Assembly: GCF_900452865.1 (NCBI RefSeq)
Contig: NZ_UGOZ01000001.1
Coordinates: forward strand, 2,945,001 to 3,009,000
Reading direction: 5' to 3'
DNA length: 64,000 bases
From: Legionella taurinensis
Lineage (GTDB): Bacteria; Pseudomonadota; Gammaproteobacteria; Legionellales; Legionellaceae
Each line of letters starts with the position of its first letter. Position 1 is the stretch's first letter. Shown here piece after piece: positions 47,975-54,045 of the stretch. The notes under the pieces are model-generated. The model saw nothing but the letters and a program-made list of their open reading frames with translations. It searched no databases and was not told where the DNA came from. The position numbers and the translations under genes are program-made.

Positions 47975-48418
47975 TCAGGCCTGATAATCGTATTGCAATT
48001 CCAGCGGCATTAATTCATGCAATCGCTGAAAAAGCCGCAGAATGTCGATGCAAAAAACATGCTGTTGCTGGCGGTTTTCCCACAATTCGTAATCAATTCC
48101 TTTGCGAAAAGCCACCTGGCGCGACAGCTTTTTCATGAGTTGAATGTCCTGATTGGAAAAACCAAGATCAATGTTTAACTCCACCAGTTCCTGTAAATTT
48201 TTATGTTGTTTAACCGGGCGGTGATCATGCAGCAGGAAGGCTTTAAACATCATTTCAAACGCGGTATACATCAGGGATGAAATGGGCGCTAAGGCGTCGC
48301 TGACACCATAACGGGCAATATTGACTTCCGCGTCATTCGCCAGCAAATGCTGCGCACAATAGGCATGCTGGCTTGCTATCTTAAGCATCTCAATGGGCGA
48401 GTAGTAGTGTTTGTCCAT
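47975..48418 (-). CDS. HEPN-like domain protein
   Basis: This 147-aa all-helical protein has the HEPN layout: a first long helix (EMLKIASQHAYCAQHLLAND) and a central SSLMYTAFEMMFKAFLL helix, followed by KQHKNLQELVEL. The RxxxxH catalytic motif of HEPN ribonucleases is not evident at the usual position. No MNT nucleotidyltransferase partner is adjacent. GAGGAATGCC supports ATG 48418 over the upstream ATG. Confidence 0.6.
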   Translation of the reverse strand: MDKHYYSPIEMLKIASQHAYCAQHLLANDAEVNIARYGVSDALAPISSLMYTAFEMMFKAFLLHDHRPVKQHKNLQELVELNIDLGFSNQDIQLMKKLSRQVAFRKGIDYELWENRQQQHVFCIDILRLFQRLHELMPLELQYDYQA

Positions 48419-48523
48419 GGCATTCCTCGTTAGGTTGTGTGCCTTAAGCGGAGCAATCATGCATCATGATAATGGATGTGTATAATACTCTCAATTCATG
48501 TTTGTTTTATTTTATTGTAACCC

Positions 48524-49507
48524 ATGCAATCTTTTCTCAACACACCACTGACCATCGGGACCCTGACTTTGGCTAACCGCCTGATTCAGGGCCCCCTGGC
48601 TGGATTCAGCTGCGCGGCGTTCCGACGCTTGTTTTATCGCTTCGTACCGCCGGCTTACTGTGTCAGCGAAATGATGTCCGCTCACGATGTAGTCTATAAA
48701 CATCATTTTAGCAGCCGCTACCTTTTTCGTGCGCCGGAGGAGACTCATTTATGTTATCAACTCGCCGGCAACGATCCGGCCCTGATGGCTGAAGCGGCGG
48801 CTAAACTGGCGGCGCTCGCCCCCGACTTGCTGGATATTAATTGCGGCTGCCCCAAAGCCAAGATTCGCAAAAAAGGGGCTGGCAGCGCCCTGCTGCAACA
48901 ACCCGACACCCTAAAAGCGATTGTTCGCGCCGTGAAAGACGTGAGCCCCTGTCCTTTAACTGTCAAAATCCGTATCCAGGGCAATGATCAGGACTTCATG
49001 CTGGCAGAACAACTTGCCGAAGCCGGTGCCGATGCCCTGATTGTGCATGGACGCCGCTGGGTGGATGATTATGCTATTGCCTGTGATTTTAAACAGATTG
49101 CCCGCATCAAACGCCACATTGGCATACCGGTTATTGCCAATGGCGATATCCATGACTTAGCCAGCCTGCACAACGCTCGATTGGAAACCGGTTGTGATGC
49201 GTTCATGATCTCCAGAGCAGGCACCGGCAAACCCTGGCTTTATCAGCAATTGCTGCAACAACCCACACTGCGTGCAGACACGGAGCAAGCAAGCGAATTA
49301 TTTCTGTTGCATCTGACTTATTTAAGTGAGCAGGACACTGAATACCAGGCGGTTTTACAAAGCAAATCCCTTATCCGTTATTATTTTAAAAACCGCCTCA
49401 CGCCCTCTGATCTGTCGTCTTTCTATGCCTTAACGAGCCTTGCTGCCATCAAGGACTACATGCGGCAGTGGTGTTTAAGTCAGGCTGCGACCACCGTCGA
49501 CATTTAA
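48524..49507 (+). CDS. dus: tRNA-dihydrouridine synthase family protein
   Basis: This 327-aa FMN enzyme reduces specific uridines in tRNA. The TIM-barrel carries ANRLIQGPLAGFSCAAFR at the start, the catalytic NCGCPKAKIRKKGAGSALL (Cys109), and the flavin-phosphate segment ANGDIHDLASL with MISRAGTGKPWL. Whether it is the DusA, DusB or DusC type cannot be fixed by eye; it is not flanked by fis as dusB usually is. TATAAT at 48481-48486 may be the -10 box. Its last 33 bases overlap the convergent reductase gene. Confidence 0.88.
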   Translation: MQSFLNTPLTIGTLTLANRLIQGPLAGFSCAAFRRLFYRFVPPAYCVSEMMSAHDVVYKHHFSSRYLFRAPEETHLCYQLAGNDPALMAEAAAKLAALAPDLLDINCGCPKAKIRKKGAGSALLQQPDTLKAIVRAVKDVSPCPLTVKIRIQGNDQDFMLAEQLAEAGADALIVHGRRWVDDYAIACDFKQIARIKRHIGIPVIANGDIHDLASLHNARLETGCDAFMISRAGTGKPWLYQQLLQQPTLRADTEQASELFLLHLTYLSEQDTEYQAVLQSKSLIRYYFKNRLTPSDLSSFYALTSLAAIKDYMRQWCLSQAATTVDI

Positions 49508-50218
49508 AATCTGGCCGGTGATAAAGGCATTATCCGCTAAGGCCAGCACCGCCTGAGCAATGTAATCCGGTTGGCCATGACTTCTTAAGGGTGTGCGGGC
49601 AATGATTTGTTCACGCGCATTAAGACTTAAGCTGTTTTCATGCTCTGGCCAGGCAATGGCGCCCGGCGCTACCGCGTTTACGCGCACAAGCGGCGCAAAT
49701 TCACGGGCCAGCGCTCGGGTCTGCATGGCTAAGGCCGCTTTGGACTGGCAATACAGAGCATAGCCCTTTAAAGGCTTATCCGCATGGATGTCGGTAATAT
49801 TGACGATACTTCCCTTCTGTTGCTGCAACCAGGGGAAAGCGGCCGTACTTAACGAAAAAGGGGCAAACACATTCACCTGAAATAATCGACTCTGATCCGT
49901 CACATGCCATTGCTGAACATCGGTACGGAAAAACAGCGACGCATTGTTCACCAACAGGTCAAGACGGCCTGCCCAGCGGGTCACGTCGTCGATAATCACC
50001 TGTCCGGCATCGCCCCGTAACAGGTCACATTGGATGACCCGGGCACTGTCGGCTTGCAAATTGTTCAATATTTTTGCTAAATTAGCGGCCTCGGTCGACG
50101 ACTGATGGCAATGAATGGCCACTTTAAACCCTGCCTGATGCAGGAATTGGACGATGGCTGCCCCGATACGGCGAGCAGCGCCGGTCACCAGGGCAACACG
50201 GCCTTCTTGTTTAGTCAT
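49475..50218 (-). CDS. pteridine reductase, PTR1/FolM type (SDR)
   Basis: This 247-aa short-chain dehydrogenase has the NADPH motif VTGAARRIG. The arginine pattern is typical of pteridine reductases rather than the TGxxxGIG of ordinary SDRs. The active site has Asp in place of the usual Ser: Asp143, Tyr156 and Lys160 have exactly the 13- and 4-residue spacing of PTR1. Such enzymes reduce dihydrobiopterin, dihydromonapterin or dihydrofolate. It lies next to, but divergent from, the MidA-PTPS genes. It overlaps dus by 33 bases. ATG 50218 is preferred to an upstream TTG. Confidence 0.86.
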   Translation of the reverse strand: MTKQEGRVALVTGAARRIGAAIVQFLHQAGFKVAIHCHQSSTEAANLAKILNNLQADSARVIQCDLLRGDAGQVIIDDVTRWAGRLDLLVNNASLFFRTDVQQWHVTDQSRLFQVNVFAPFSLSTAAFPWLQQQKGSIVNITDIHADKPLKGYALYCQSKAALAMQTRALAREFAPLVRVNAVAPGAIAWPEHENSLSLNAREQIIARTPLRSHGQPDYIAQAVLALADNAFITGQILNVDGGRSLT

Positions 50219-50259
50219 TTGATTCAAGGTATTTTCCCCGTTTTTAATGGTATTTTCCT

Positions 50260-51372
50260 ATGAGCAATCCTACTTCGCTTCATCACCTCTTGCAGGAATG
50301 CGGTGAAATTCCCTTCGTGGAATTCATGCAACACGCCCTCTATGCACCAGGCAGCGGTTATTACAGCGCCGGATTGCAGAAGTTTGGTGCAGAAGGTGAT
50401 TTTATCACAGCTCCTGAATTAACCCCGCTTTTTGCACAAACACTGGCGGTACAGTGTCAACAGATTCTTAAGGAACTGGACCGTCCGGTTTTGTTTGAGT
50501 TTGGTGCAGGTTCAGGACGTCTTTGTGTGGATTTACTCAAAGCCCTGGACGCACTGCAGTGCTTGCCAGAGCAATACCTGATTATGGAAGTCAGCGGCAA
50601 TTTACGCCAACGACAACACCAACTGATTCAAGCTGAAATCCCTCACCTTCAAACGCGCGTCCAATGGTTGGAGCGGTGGCCAGAGCAGGGCTTTGATGGC
50701 GTCATGATTGCCAATGAAGTACTGGACGCCATGCCCGTTCATCGCTTTTTGCAAACGGAACAGGGCCTGCTGGAGAGCTGGGTAAGCGTTGATGAACAAG
50801 GCCAACTCAGCGAGCGTTTTAAGCCCTGCGACAATTCCCGCCTGATCAATTACCTGCAACAGGCCTTACCCGACCTACCCTGCCCCTATCAATCGGAAGT
50901 GAATTTATTCACGGAGGACTGGCTTAAGGAATGCAGCCGGATTTTACATCGGGGCGCGATGCTGCTGATTGATTATGGTTTCCCGCGCCATGAATATTAC
51001 CATCCCGATCGCAATCAAGGCACCTTGATGTGCCATTTCCGCCATCACGCCCACAGTAACCCGCTCATTCATGTCGGCGAACAAGATATTACCGCACACG
51101 TGGACTTCACCCAGGTGGCCGAAGCGGGGCACGAGGCGGGTTTTCATGTCGCCGGTTACACCAATCAAGCCTCTTTCTTGCTTGCGAACGGTTTGCTAAG
51201 CTTACTGGAGCGTATAGCCGGTGAGCCGCAACGCATTCGAGCTCAGCAAGCGGTTAAACAGTTAATTCAGCCCGAGGAAATGGGTGAGCTTTTTAAGGTG
51301 ATTGCCTTGACCAAAGGCATCGACTTCCCCCTGCAGGGCTTTCTACTTCATGATAAGCGAGTGAGTTTGTGA
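50260..51372 (+). CDS. MidA/NDUFAF7-type SAM-dependent methyltransferase (DUF185)
   Basis: This 370-aa COG1565 protein is related to NDUFAF7, the mitochondrial complex I arginine methyltransferase. It has FVEFMQHALYAPGSGYYS, then GDFITAPELTPLF and the SAM motif LFEFGAGSGRLCVDLL. VMIANEVLDAMPVHRF is the conserved acceptor-site loop. The bacterial substrate is not known. The gene ends one base before the PTPS-like gene, so they are cotranscribed. Confidence 0.9.
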   Translation: MSNPTSLHHLLQECGEIPFVEFMQHALYAPGSGYYSAGLQKFGAEGDFITAPELTPLFAQTLAVQCQQILKELDRPVLFEFGAGSGRLCVDLLKALDALQCLPEQYLIMEVSGNLRQRQHQLIQAEIPHLQTRVQWLERWPEQGFDGVMIANEVLDAMPVHRFLQTEQGLLESWVSVDEQGQLSERFKPCDNSRLINYLQQALPDLPCPYQSEVNLFTEDWLKECSRILHRGAMLLIDYGFPRHEYYHPDRNQGTLMCHFRHHAHSNPLIHVGEQDITAHVDFTQVAEAGHEAGFHVAGYTNQASFLLANGLLSLLERIAGEPQRIRAQQAVKQLIQPEEMGELFKVIALTKGIDFPLQGFLLHDKRVSL

Positions 51373-51373
51373 T

Positions 51374-51868
51374 ATGAGCAAATATTTAACTACTGTGGAA
51401 TTACAAAAAGAATCCATGAAGTTTTCCGCGGGCCATACGACCATCTTTTCAGCCACCGAGCGCGAACCCTTACATGGCCATATGTACAACGTTTATCTGG
51501 CACTGACAACCTGGGTTGAAGAGAATGGCATGACCTTCGATTACCGCTACTACAAGGAGCGCATTCACAAGCTGTGCAGGCAGCTGAATCAGACATTCCT
51601 GATGCCGCAATTCTCCCCCTTTCTGCAATACGCTGAAGATGAAACGTATCTTTATTTCACTTTTAATCACAAAAAAATTCCTTTCCTTAAAGAAGACGTC
51701 ACGCTCATGCCCTTGACTAACATTACTGTGGAAGAGTTATCACGCTGGTTTGTGCAGGAATTGATTAAAGACACCGCCGAGCTGGACCGTCACCGTATTG
51801 AAAAAGTGGTGGTTAAGGTTTTTTCAGCACCCGGGCAATCCGCCAGTCATGAATGGCAACGCACTTAA
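51374..51868 (+). CDS. 6-pyruvoyltetrahydropterin synthase (PTPS/QueD) homologue with altered active site
   Basis: This 164-aa T-fold protein keeps the three zinc histidines of the family: His21 in FSAGHTT, and His34 and His36 in EPLHGHMY. The catalytic Cys of QueD and PTPS is absent. The motif here is ExxHGH (Glu31), the form described for PTPS-III proteins that replace dihydroneopterin aldolase FolB in folate synthesis. The usual Asp-His of the LDHxxLN segment appears as Asn72-Gln73 (QLNQTFLM). It is therefore not a standard QueD. Neighbours are a pteridine reductase and a MidA methyltransferase. A true PTPS-III or a new activity are both possible. Confidence 0.8.
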   Translation: MSKYLTTVELQKESMKFSAGHTTIFSATEREPLHGHMYNVYLALTTWVEENGMTFDYRYYKERIHKLCRQLNQTFLMPQFSPFLQYAEDETYLYFTFNHKKIPFLKEDVTLMPLTNITVEELSRWFVQELIKDTAELDRHRIEKVVVKVFSAPGQSASHEWQRT

Positions 51869-51870
51869 CA

Positions 51871-54045
51871 ATGACTCAAGTCGTTCAAGTCTGTATTCCA
51901 CACACTCACCGCGATTATTTCGATTATTTACCGGCGGACGCGTTGCCTTTAGCCGGTTCTCGTGTCCTTGTACCGTTCCGTAATAAAATTCGCGTCGGCT
52001 TCGTCACCGGATTCGGTGAGACAGAGCAGGAAATTACCAGCTTAAAAACCATTGAGCGGCTTTTTGATGAAGAACCGCTGTTCACACCCTCACTGCTTGA
52101 ATTGTGTCACTGGGTCAGCCGCTACTACCAGTCGCCGCTGTCCGAAGTACTCCCCCTAGCCCTCCCTAAAAATTATCGCCTCGGCAAAGAAGCGCAATTG
52201 ACTTACGTCGATTATTTTCAATTGGCCCTTCCTGCAAAGGAGGTTTTGCGTCTGATTAATCCCCGGGCGCGAAAACAGCAGCAAGTGCTGGATCATTTCA
52301 TGATCAACCCCAAGGCGGTCAGCAAAAGCGAATTGCAGAAAGCCGGATTTACTTCTATCCTGCTGAGCACGCTGTGCGAGCGCGGCATTCTGGAGCGACG
52401 GCAGGAGTTAGCCTTGCCAATGGCAGGTAATCGCAGTCCCGAGGCCCCGCTCGTGTTAAATGAAGAACAACAGTCAGCGGTCGAAAAAATAACCGCCAAC
52501 ACGACTGGGTATCATTGTTATCTTTTACAGGGTGTAACCGGCAGCGGTAAAACAGAAGTCTACCTTCAGGTGATTAGCACCTGGCTGTCTTTAAACCGTC
52601 AGATTCTGGTTTTAGTCCCGGAAATCGGCTTAACACCGCAATTGATTCATCGTTTTAGCCAGCGACTGAGCGTGCCCATGGCCGTGATTCACTCCGGTCT
52701 CAACGAGCAGGAGCGTCAGCAAGCCTGGCATCTGGCTAAAATCGGAGCCGTTAACGTCGTCATCGGCACCCGCACCGCCGTGTTTACACCCATGCCCCAC
52801 CTGGGCTTGATTATCATTGATGAAGAACACGATCCCTCATTAAAGCAAGGGGAGGGCGTGCGCTATTCCGCCCGCGACACCGCCTTGATGCGGGCGCACC
52901 TTGCAGGCATCCCCATCCTTTTAGGTTCAGCCACCCCAAGCCTTGAAAGCCTGCAAAACAGTCTGCAGGGAAAATACAGCTTGCTGCGTTTAAATCAAAA
53001 AGCGCTCAATCAATCCCCCCTGCATATTCAAATCACCGATTTACGCAACGTTCCGCTTAAAGACGGTCTGGCCGACTCGACCCTTAACACCATGGCTGCC
53101 CATCTGAACGAGGGCAATCAGGTGTTGGTTTTCATTAACCGCCGCGGTTACGCACCGGTTCTGCTTTGTCATCAATGCGGCTGGATGGCGGATTGCCGTG
53201 CCTGCGACAGCCATCTGACGCTGCACCGCCAACGCCAGCAGCTGCTTTGCCACCATTGCGGCTTAAGCCAGGCTATTCCCTCGGCATGCAAACAATGTAA
53301 AAGCCGGGAACTCGTTCCTGTCGGCGTGGGGACGCAACGGCTTTATGATTATTTAAGCCAGCACTTCCCAACCACCCGCGTGATGCGTATTGATCGGGAT
53401 GAAGTGCGTAAAAAAAATGAACTGGATGAACGGCTGGCTCAAATCCATCGCGGGGAGGCCCAATTAATCATTGGAACGCAAATGTTGGCCAAAGGGCATC
53501 ATTTCCCCCGCTTGACCCTGGTCGTGATTGTCGACGTGGATGCCGGCTTCTACAATCAGGACTTTCGTGCCCTGGAGCGTTTAGGTCAATTATTAACCCA
53601 GGTGGCAGGGCGTGCAGGACGCGCTGACAAACGGGGACAGGTGATTATTCAAACCCATTTCCCGACCCACCCGCTGTTAAACACGCTGGTGCAGAAAGGC
53701 TACGATGCCTTTGCCGAAGCCCTGCTGACCTCCCGCCAGCAGGCTGCCCTGCCGCCTTACCATTACCTTGCCGTGATTCGCGCCCAGGATAAAAAGCCGG
53801 CGCCGCTGCTTCAGTTTCTGCATGCGGTGAAGAATCAGTTACAGGATCAAGCCATTGACATCATGGGACCAGCCCCGGCCCCGTTGCCGCGTAAAGCCAA
53901 TCAATACCGCATGCAATTATTATTAAAATCATCCTCCCGTAAATTACTGCAACAGTCATTGACGACCTTAAGGGAGTGGTTAACAATGGATAAATCACAC
54001 AACGTCCGCTGGAATATCGACGTGGATCCCATGGATTTAACATGA
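51871..54045 (+). CDS. priA: primosomal protein N' (replication-restart helicase)
   Basis: PriA is the 3'-5' helicase that reloads the replisome at stalled forks. This 724-aa protein has the DNA-binding start (VQVCIPHTHRDYFDYLPA), Walker A GVTGSGKTEV, the DEEHD Walker B and GSATPSLESL. The eight zinc cysteines are spread over CHQCGWMADCRAC to CKQC near residue 440. The C-terminal helicase motif LTQVAGRAGRADKRG is present. ATG 51871 agrees with family N-termini; an ATG at 51853 overlaps the previous gene. The stop overlaps the thioesterase start (ATGA). Confidence 0.96.
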   Translation: MTQVVQVCIPHTHRDYFDYLPADALPLAGSRVLVPFRNKIRVGFVTGFGETEQEITSLKTIERLFDEEPLFTPSLLELCHWVSRYYQSPLSEVLPLALPKNYRLGKEAQLTYVDYFQLALPAKEVLRLINPRARKQQQVLDHFMINPKAVSKSELQKAGFTSILLSTLCERGILERRQELALPMAGNRSPEAPLVLNEEQQSAVEKITANTTGYHCYLLQGVTGSGKTEVYLQVISTWLSLNRQILVLVPEIGLTPQLIHRFSQRLSVPMAVIHSGLNEQERQQAWHLAKIGAVNVVIGTRTAVFTPMPHLGLIIIDEEHDPSLKQGEGVRYSARDTALMRAHLAGIPILLGSATPSLESLQNSLQGKYSLLRLNQKALNQSPLHIQITDLRNVPLKDGLADSTLNTMAAHLNEGNQVLVFINRRGYAPVLLCHQCGWMADCRACDSHLTLHRQRQQLLCHHCGLSQAIPSACKQCKSRELVPVGVGTQRLYDYLSQHFPTTRVMRIDRDEVRKKNELDERLAQIHRGEAQLIIGTQMLAKGHHFPRLTLVVIVDVDAGFYNQDFRALERLGQLLTQVAGRAGRADKRGQVIIQTHFPTHPLLNTLVQKGYDAFAEALLTSRQQAALPPYHYLAVIRAQDKKPAPLLQFLHAVKNQLQDQAIDIMGPAPAPLPRKANQYRMQLLLKSSSRKLLQQSLTTLREWLTMDKSHNVRWNIDVDPMDLT

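Follow-up and report, generated by a model that had tools for sequence, protein, structure and literature searches.

Introduction

In PTPS (6-pyruvoyltetrahydropterin synthase) enzymes a Glu anchors the pterin, and this Glu and an Asp-His dyad are among the criteria by which QueD, or PTPS-I, is recognized. Here we describe gene X of Legionella taurinensis, located in a 64,000-nucleotide stretch of the genome (contig NZ_UGOZ01000001.1, positions 2,945,001 to 3,009,000; hereafter the window), whose PTPS-fold product could easily be mistaken for a PTPS or for QueD though it lacks residues used by both. The assignment of X to a distinct conserved subfamily, with the malaria enzyme as nearest among solved structures, is well supported by sequence comparison, and X probably performs novel pterin chemistry and does not replace a missing folate enzyme.

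The PTPS classes have been separated by motif (CxxxHGH for PTPS-I, CxxxxxHGH for PTPS-II and ExxHGH for PTPS-III), and misannotation of PTPS-family genes is widespread (PMC5041015); FGPAQ is the signature of PTPS-IV (PMC5445326). The solved relatives nearest X by sequence are the Plasmodium PTPS-III enzymes (PDB 2a0s, 1y13, 3lze, 3m0n), that is, malaria folate enzymes and not any bacterial PTPS. Glu38 is the catalytic Glu of malaria PTPS (PMC2229834), and for the P. falciparum enzyme importance in catalysis has been ascribed to E161 and H80 (PMC7546909). Plasmodium PTPS keeps the Asp-His dyad and Glu161, whereas X has neither that His nor that Glu and occurs in a genome that encodes FolB. QueD has the fold and zinc site in common with X, which is the sole PTPS found beside QueC and QueE in its genome, but X lacks the Cys, Asp-His and Glu of QueD and has extra strands. 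PTPS-II, which acts in tetrahydrobiopterin synthesis, is also like X in fold and zinc site and precedes sepiapterin reductase, a short-chain enzyme, in the order proposed below for X; X differs from it in lacking CxxxxxHGH, the dyad His and the anchor Glu. Finally, the FolX-FolM tetrahydromonapterin route has the same kind of partner reductase as X, and phenylalanine hydroxylase is present in L. taurinensis, but FolX was not found in this genome and X belongs to the PTPS family, not to the FolB/FolX family.

Residues and conservation of X

X is an open reading frame (ORF) with an ATG start at positions 51374 to 51868 of the plus strand, encoding 164 amino acids. In a Pfam search of the window proteins it scored 47.7 bits against the PTPS family (cut-off 22.4), and its fold as predicted by AlphaFold2 is that of PTPS (predicted local distance difference test score 95.6); with the three-His site, these features place X in the PTPS superfamily (COG0720, PF01242). 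A first-pass annotation, made from the sequence alone, had described a PTPS homologue with an intact zinc site and replaced catalytic residues, and this observation is confirmed. His21 (codon 51434 to 51436, plus strand), which aligns with P. falciparum H29, would be the first zinc ligand by homology, and His34 and His36, within the His34-Gly35-His36 codons at 51473 to 51481 (plus strand), would be the second and third. The ExxHGH motif is present as described, its Glu being Glu31 (Arg30-Glu31, codons 51461 to 51466, plus strand), which aligns with the catalytic Glu of the malaria enzymes (E38 in P. falciparum, E37 in P. vivax). The translation likewise agrees that the catalytic Cys is gone; residue 28, at the PTPS-II position, is Thr. 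Asn72-Gln73 (codons 51587 to 51592, plus strand) align where the Asp-His dyad is expected, as had been read, and the loss of catalytic residues is wider than had been noted, since Ser151 (codon 51824 to 51826, plus strand) aligns at the position of the pterin-anchoring Glu. In the alignment and the AlphaFold2 model, residues ∼79-112 (51608 to 51709, plus strand) form extra strands that are also found in the malaria enzyme and not in the short QueD sequences.

To follow these residues among relatives we used a contig scan of 84,980 species, each represented by a single genome, from which records of the source genome were possibly omitted. At a threshold of 1e-3 it returned at least 490 stretches encoding a relative of X, not necessarily distinct loci, and the best 80 loci among these are called here the named loci. 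Combining the proteins of 71 named loci with those of two earlier alignments and removing duplicates gave 94 distinct X proteins. Invariant in all 94 were H21, R30, E31, H34, H36, D108, N116 and E120. The position of the dyad Asp held Asn in 73, Asp in 16, His in three and Ser in two, and that of the dyad His held Gln in 71, Glu in 12 and other residues in 11, but never His; Asn72-Gln73, although correctly read, is therefore not the defining state of the subfamily. The anchor position held Ser in 86, Asn in four, Ala in two and Thr in two, with no Glu. Nine named loci stood outside the count on account of a missing ATG, the motif filter, an ambiguous base or length; in each of them the His triad, R30 and E31 are present, whereas the dyad His and the anchor Glu are both absent.

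Conservation is also evident at the level of the gene. Sixteen X sequences including the window copy (alignment A1) have a mean column identity of 77%. The closest of the named loci, in Legionella erythra (L201), has 82% DNA identity over 7 kb and the same gene order, and between the two X orthologues the nonsynonymous rate (dN) is ∼0.025 and the synonymous rate (dS) is ∼1.8, the latter being near saturation. X is under strong purifying selection. A decayed pseudogene or a chance reading frame is ruled out by the contrast of dN and dS and by residue conservation across relatives. A mobile gene was likewise rejected (none of 72,556 plasmid records matched at 1e-8, and none of 50,697 phage records at 1e-5), and we attribute to chance a Pfam match to SSAP_Sak (19 bits, below the cut-off), which occurred in only one of 31 members. 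Full-text literature searches over a partial collection returned, among the results listed, no title or abstract opening that describes the subfamily.

In a sample of the class Gammaproteobacteria, a profile of the Legionellaceae X proteins matched 31 of 369 genomes at 1e-15; 27 genomes in 15 families scored 136-339 bits and, after a gap, four scored 68-92 bits. PTPS-like relatives at loci L063-L065 and L124 have E31, an Asp or Glu at position 108 and Q155 in common with X, but they keep the anchor Glu and score 68-92 bits to the X profile, compared with at least 136 for X. FolB, a short-chain reductase and the X-like PTPS lie in a row at L063 and L064, the FolB of L063 scoring 95 bits (cut-off 72). 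Within Legionellaceae, where X type was assigned by score band in a sample of 112 genomes, 108 genomes had a PTPS and 106 a weak-scoring match of the X type.

The first-pass annotation had proposed aligning X with the characterized PTPS classes; for PTPS-I to PTPS-IV, whose motifs were checked, only the ExxHGH of PTPS-III is present in X. X scores 39.2 bits against the QueD model TIGR03367, short of the cut-off of 89.25, and CxxxHGH, the Asp-His dyad and the anchor Glu of PTPS-I/QueD are all absent. The CxxxxxHGH of PTPS-II is absent (Thr28), as is the FGPAQ of PTPS-IV, which was seen in another PTPS at L123. Judged by the PTPS-III residues E38, H80 and E161, X keeps the first and has Q73 and S151 in place of the others.

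Gene neighborhood and pterin metabolism

The gene immediately upstream of X, at 50260 to 51372 of the plus strand, encodes a S-adenosylmethionine-dependent methyltransferase of the MidA type (Pfam Methyltransf_28, 232 bits; MidA below); a single base separates its stop codon from the start codon of X. Divergent from it and 41 bases upstream, on the minus strand at 49475 to 50227 (ATG at 50218), lies a reductase of the PTR1 type with the motifs TGAARRIG and YCQSK. The first-pass annotation had named this gene a PTR1/FolM-type reductase, and the identification is sound: the protein scores 337 bits against the pteridine reductase equivalog NF006598 (cut-off 288) and also has the motif TGX3RXG, in which the Arg has been described as a specific feature of pteridine reductases (PMC13259868). 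One gene lies between the reductase and X. The start of the PriA helicase gene (51853 to 54045, plus strand; Pfam), a neighbor outside the function proposed here, overlaps the stop of X.

This arrangement is found well beyond the window. Of 21 loci in the class sample (the window and 20 others, several cut by contig ends), 11 have MidA and 15 a short-chain reductase. Overall, many genomes from several families show X linked to a reductase, either a pteridine reductase or another of the short-chain kind. The reductases near X form two clades, one of the PTR1 type, mostly divergent, and one, here SDR-b, that lies downstream in the orientation of X, either directly or one gene further. Counted over the 80 named loci, 65 have MidA as the gene directly preceding X and 53 have PriA directly following it; a PTR1-like gene occurs in 53, and SDR-b follows X directly in seven. 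The Arg motif is present in 52 of the 53 PTR1-like proteins (>100 bits), and all seven SDR-b proteins have Gly instead. A search with one copy of SDR-b matched 39 PDB sequences at 1e-10, none of them named sepiapterin reductase. We conclude that gene linkage ties X to pterin metabolism, with inherited gene order explaining a share of it. The "modified pterin branch" suggested by the first-pass annotation fits both this reductase linkage and the pterin enzymes that are the nearest solved relatives.

The tight coupling to MidA also bears on whether X is an enzyme at all. X might instead be a zinc-stabilized binding or regulatory protein, such as a pterin sensor or a partner of MidA or of the reductase, and it is consistent with such a role that the whole subfamily has lost two catalytic groups yet retained the fold. 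However, none of the 94 proteins departs from the zinc triad or from E31, a constancy beyond the needs of a scaffold, and we consider a non-enzymatic X distinctly unlikely.

A possible use for a pterin product is provided by phenylalanine hydroxylase (PhhA), which is encoded in the source genome (185 bits) and is reported as a major contributor to pyomelanin synthesis in L. pneumophila (PMC3458870). In the class sample PhhA was present in 13 of 27 X genomes compared with 39 of 342 others (p-value 9e-6). The difference was also seen when Legionellaceae were excluded (9 of 23 compared with 39 of 342; p-value 0.001) and when families were counted (7 of 15 X families compared with 26 of 167; p-value 0.008); in the co-occurrence tests of this study kinship was considered through the by-family counts only, and PhhA was picked after the neighbors had been seen. 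With FolX not found, the presence of PhhA raises the question of where Legionella phenylalanine hydroxylase obtains its pterin cofactor.

Proposed function

The reading we favor, to which we give a probability of roughly 40%, is that X is a functional PTPS branch nearest PTPS-III in which zinc and E31 act on a dihydropterin and a reductase completes the tetrahydropterin. X retains the three-His zinc site and E31, but both the second catalytic base, formed by the Asp-His dyad, and the ring-anchoring Glu have been lost. Zinc and E31 may act on the side chain of a GTP-derived dihydropterin, by rearrangement or cleavage, candidate substrates being 7,8-dihydroneopterin and its triphosphate. The full PTPS reaction would not be reached, because the missing dyad would block its second half. 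Without the anchor Glu, the ring would be held in another way or the ligand would differ. The neighboring short-chain reductase, of the PTR1 type in Legionella and SDR-b elsewhere, would then reduce the product to a tetrahydropterin cofactor, for which phenylalanine hydroxylase would be one use.

Several observations weigh against this proposal. PhhA is missing from 14 of the 27 X genomes, so that phenylalanine hydroxylase cannot be the sole use of the product. In ten X genomes, some with contig-cut stretches, neither X nor SDR-b was found within ∼5 kb of phhA, where two weak short-chain reductase matches (62 and 70 bits) occurred. A motif scan placed FolE near X in one genome only, that of an uncultured gammaproteobacterium, in which a GTP cyclohydrolase I (L129:3218-3781, 250 bits) lies 3.2 kb from X. 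Neither kind of reductase is present in 21 of the 80 named loci (13 of these under 14 kb and eight full length), and SDR-b lacks the pteridine-reductase Arg and falls below every NCBIfam cut-off among the matches listed. Conserved gene order within Legionellaceae is partly inheritance, without the anchor Glu the ligand could be something other than a pterin, and we infer both the substrate and the activity of X.

A bolder proposal is that X defines a new PTPS class using zinc and Glu with neither dyad nor anchor, which either makes tetrahydropterin together with PTR1 or SDR-b, apart from PTPS-II and FolX, or provides the activity of QueD through chemistry of a new kind; we regard this as doubtful. 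On this view MidA may decorate the pterin product, a step that can be compared with the 2′-O-methylmonapterin proposed in Agrobacterium (PMC13259868).

Folate synthesis

The nearest solved relatives and the ExxHGH motif would also be expected of a working PTPS-III, which would make 6-hydroxymethyl-dihydropterin from dihydroneopterin triphosphate, the activity of the malaria enzyme (PMC2229834), alongside or in place of FolB. The source genome encodes one FolB-family protein, which passes the dihydroneopterin aldolase cut-off (86 bits, cut-off 72) and scores 63 bits against the FolX epimerase model (cut-off 152). Because FolB is present, no folate bypass is needed: the bypass raised in the first-pass annotation is unsupported in L. 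taurinensis, substitution of X for FolB is rejected, and X does not share the absence of FolB associated with PTPS-III. Elsewhere FolB lies ∼5 kb from X (L072) and a FolB homologue ∼3 kb from X (L076), a proximity that is consistent with a folate role but that, with both genes present, speaks against substitution. Since the H80 and E161 of the P. falciparum enzyme (PMC7546909) are Gln73 and Ser151 in X, we consider a working PTPS-III quite improbable.

Queuosine synthesis

The genome search for folB and queD proposed in the first-pass annotation thus recovered a normal folB; across the 3.15 Mb and two contigs it found no second PTPS besides X and no separate queD. Of the three findings named there as counting against a pterin or folate role (a normal folB, a separate complete queD and inactivity), only the first was encountered. 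The genome does encode QueC (258 bits) and a gamma-type QueE (364 bits, cut-off 300), and wherever these two occur without an ordinary QueD the source of QueD activity comes into question. X could be that source, as a 6-carboxytetrahydropterin synthase with a remodeled catalytic site whose product would pass to QueE and QueC. Where X was the only PTPS of a class-sample genome, 14 of 21 had QueC, compared with 36 of 91 genomes without any PTPS (p-value 0.03); among genomes whose PTPS are all of other types the figure was 233 of 251. X-only genomes are intermediate in QueC frequency between the PTPS-free and other-PTPS groups. The queC gene is also loosely near X in Legionellaceae, at 4-39 kb by genome coordinates in seven of the eight genomes with both genes placed.

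However, the Cys, Asp-His and Glu of QueD are gone from X, which scores 39 bits where 89 are required, and the six genomes with X plus another PTPS all have QueC. X occurs without QueC in three genomes rated 99% complete (G030, G188 and G239). The reverse case, QueC without any detected PTPS, is found in G070, a Legionellaceae genome that is 99% complete, as well as in the 36 of 91 genomes above, and in such genomes another source of QueD activity or of the precursor must exist; the 36 PTPS-free gammaproteobacterial genomes suggest an unrecognized QueD substitute, precursor salvage or a missed PTPS. A profile for a two-domain long PTPS that might conceal QueD (A2) gave no match in 56 genomes, in a search without a positive control. 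Nor is queC adjacent to X or in the same operon. In the source genome the two are ∼246 kb apart, assuming a circular contig; at L155, L163, L221 and L222 the distance is 4-14 kb with unrelated genes between, three of them on the opposite strand at L221. Among 100 X loci examined, queC was present in two (L155 and L163), ∼4 kb away, and queE in none. A QueD role for X is possible but not favored, and that X serves as the QueD of this genome seems unlikely.

Other PTPS variants and neighboring ORFs

Several other PTPS-like proteins were encountered. A genome of the same genus (G088; L015 and L125) encodes a second PTPS, with the motif RLVHGY, next to a gene for GTP cyclohydrolase I (233 bits). 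In some Legionellaceae (L008-L013) a PTPS paralogue has HSHHY, preceded by Glu-Asn, in the place of HGH. An X-carrying genome also encodes, at L122:2574-3629, a single 352-amino-acid frame in which a PTPS-like HGH motif occurs three times. Loci L115-L119 encode a two-part PTPS-like protein of ∼280-300 amino acids with a weak Pfam PTPS match, one half of which carries CQRIAHGHRS or CQRMVHGHRS. Within the window, an ORF of 161 amino acids on the minus strand (47975 to 48460), matching no Pfam family at 0.001, lies beside a dihydrouridine synthase gene.
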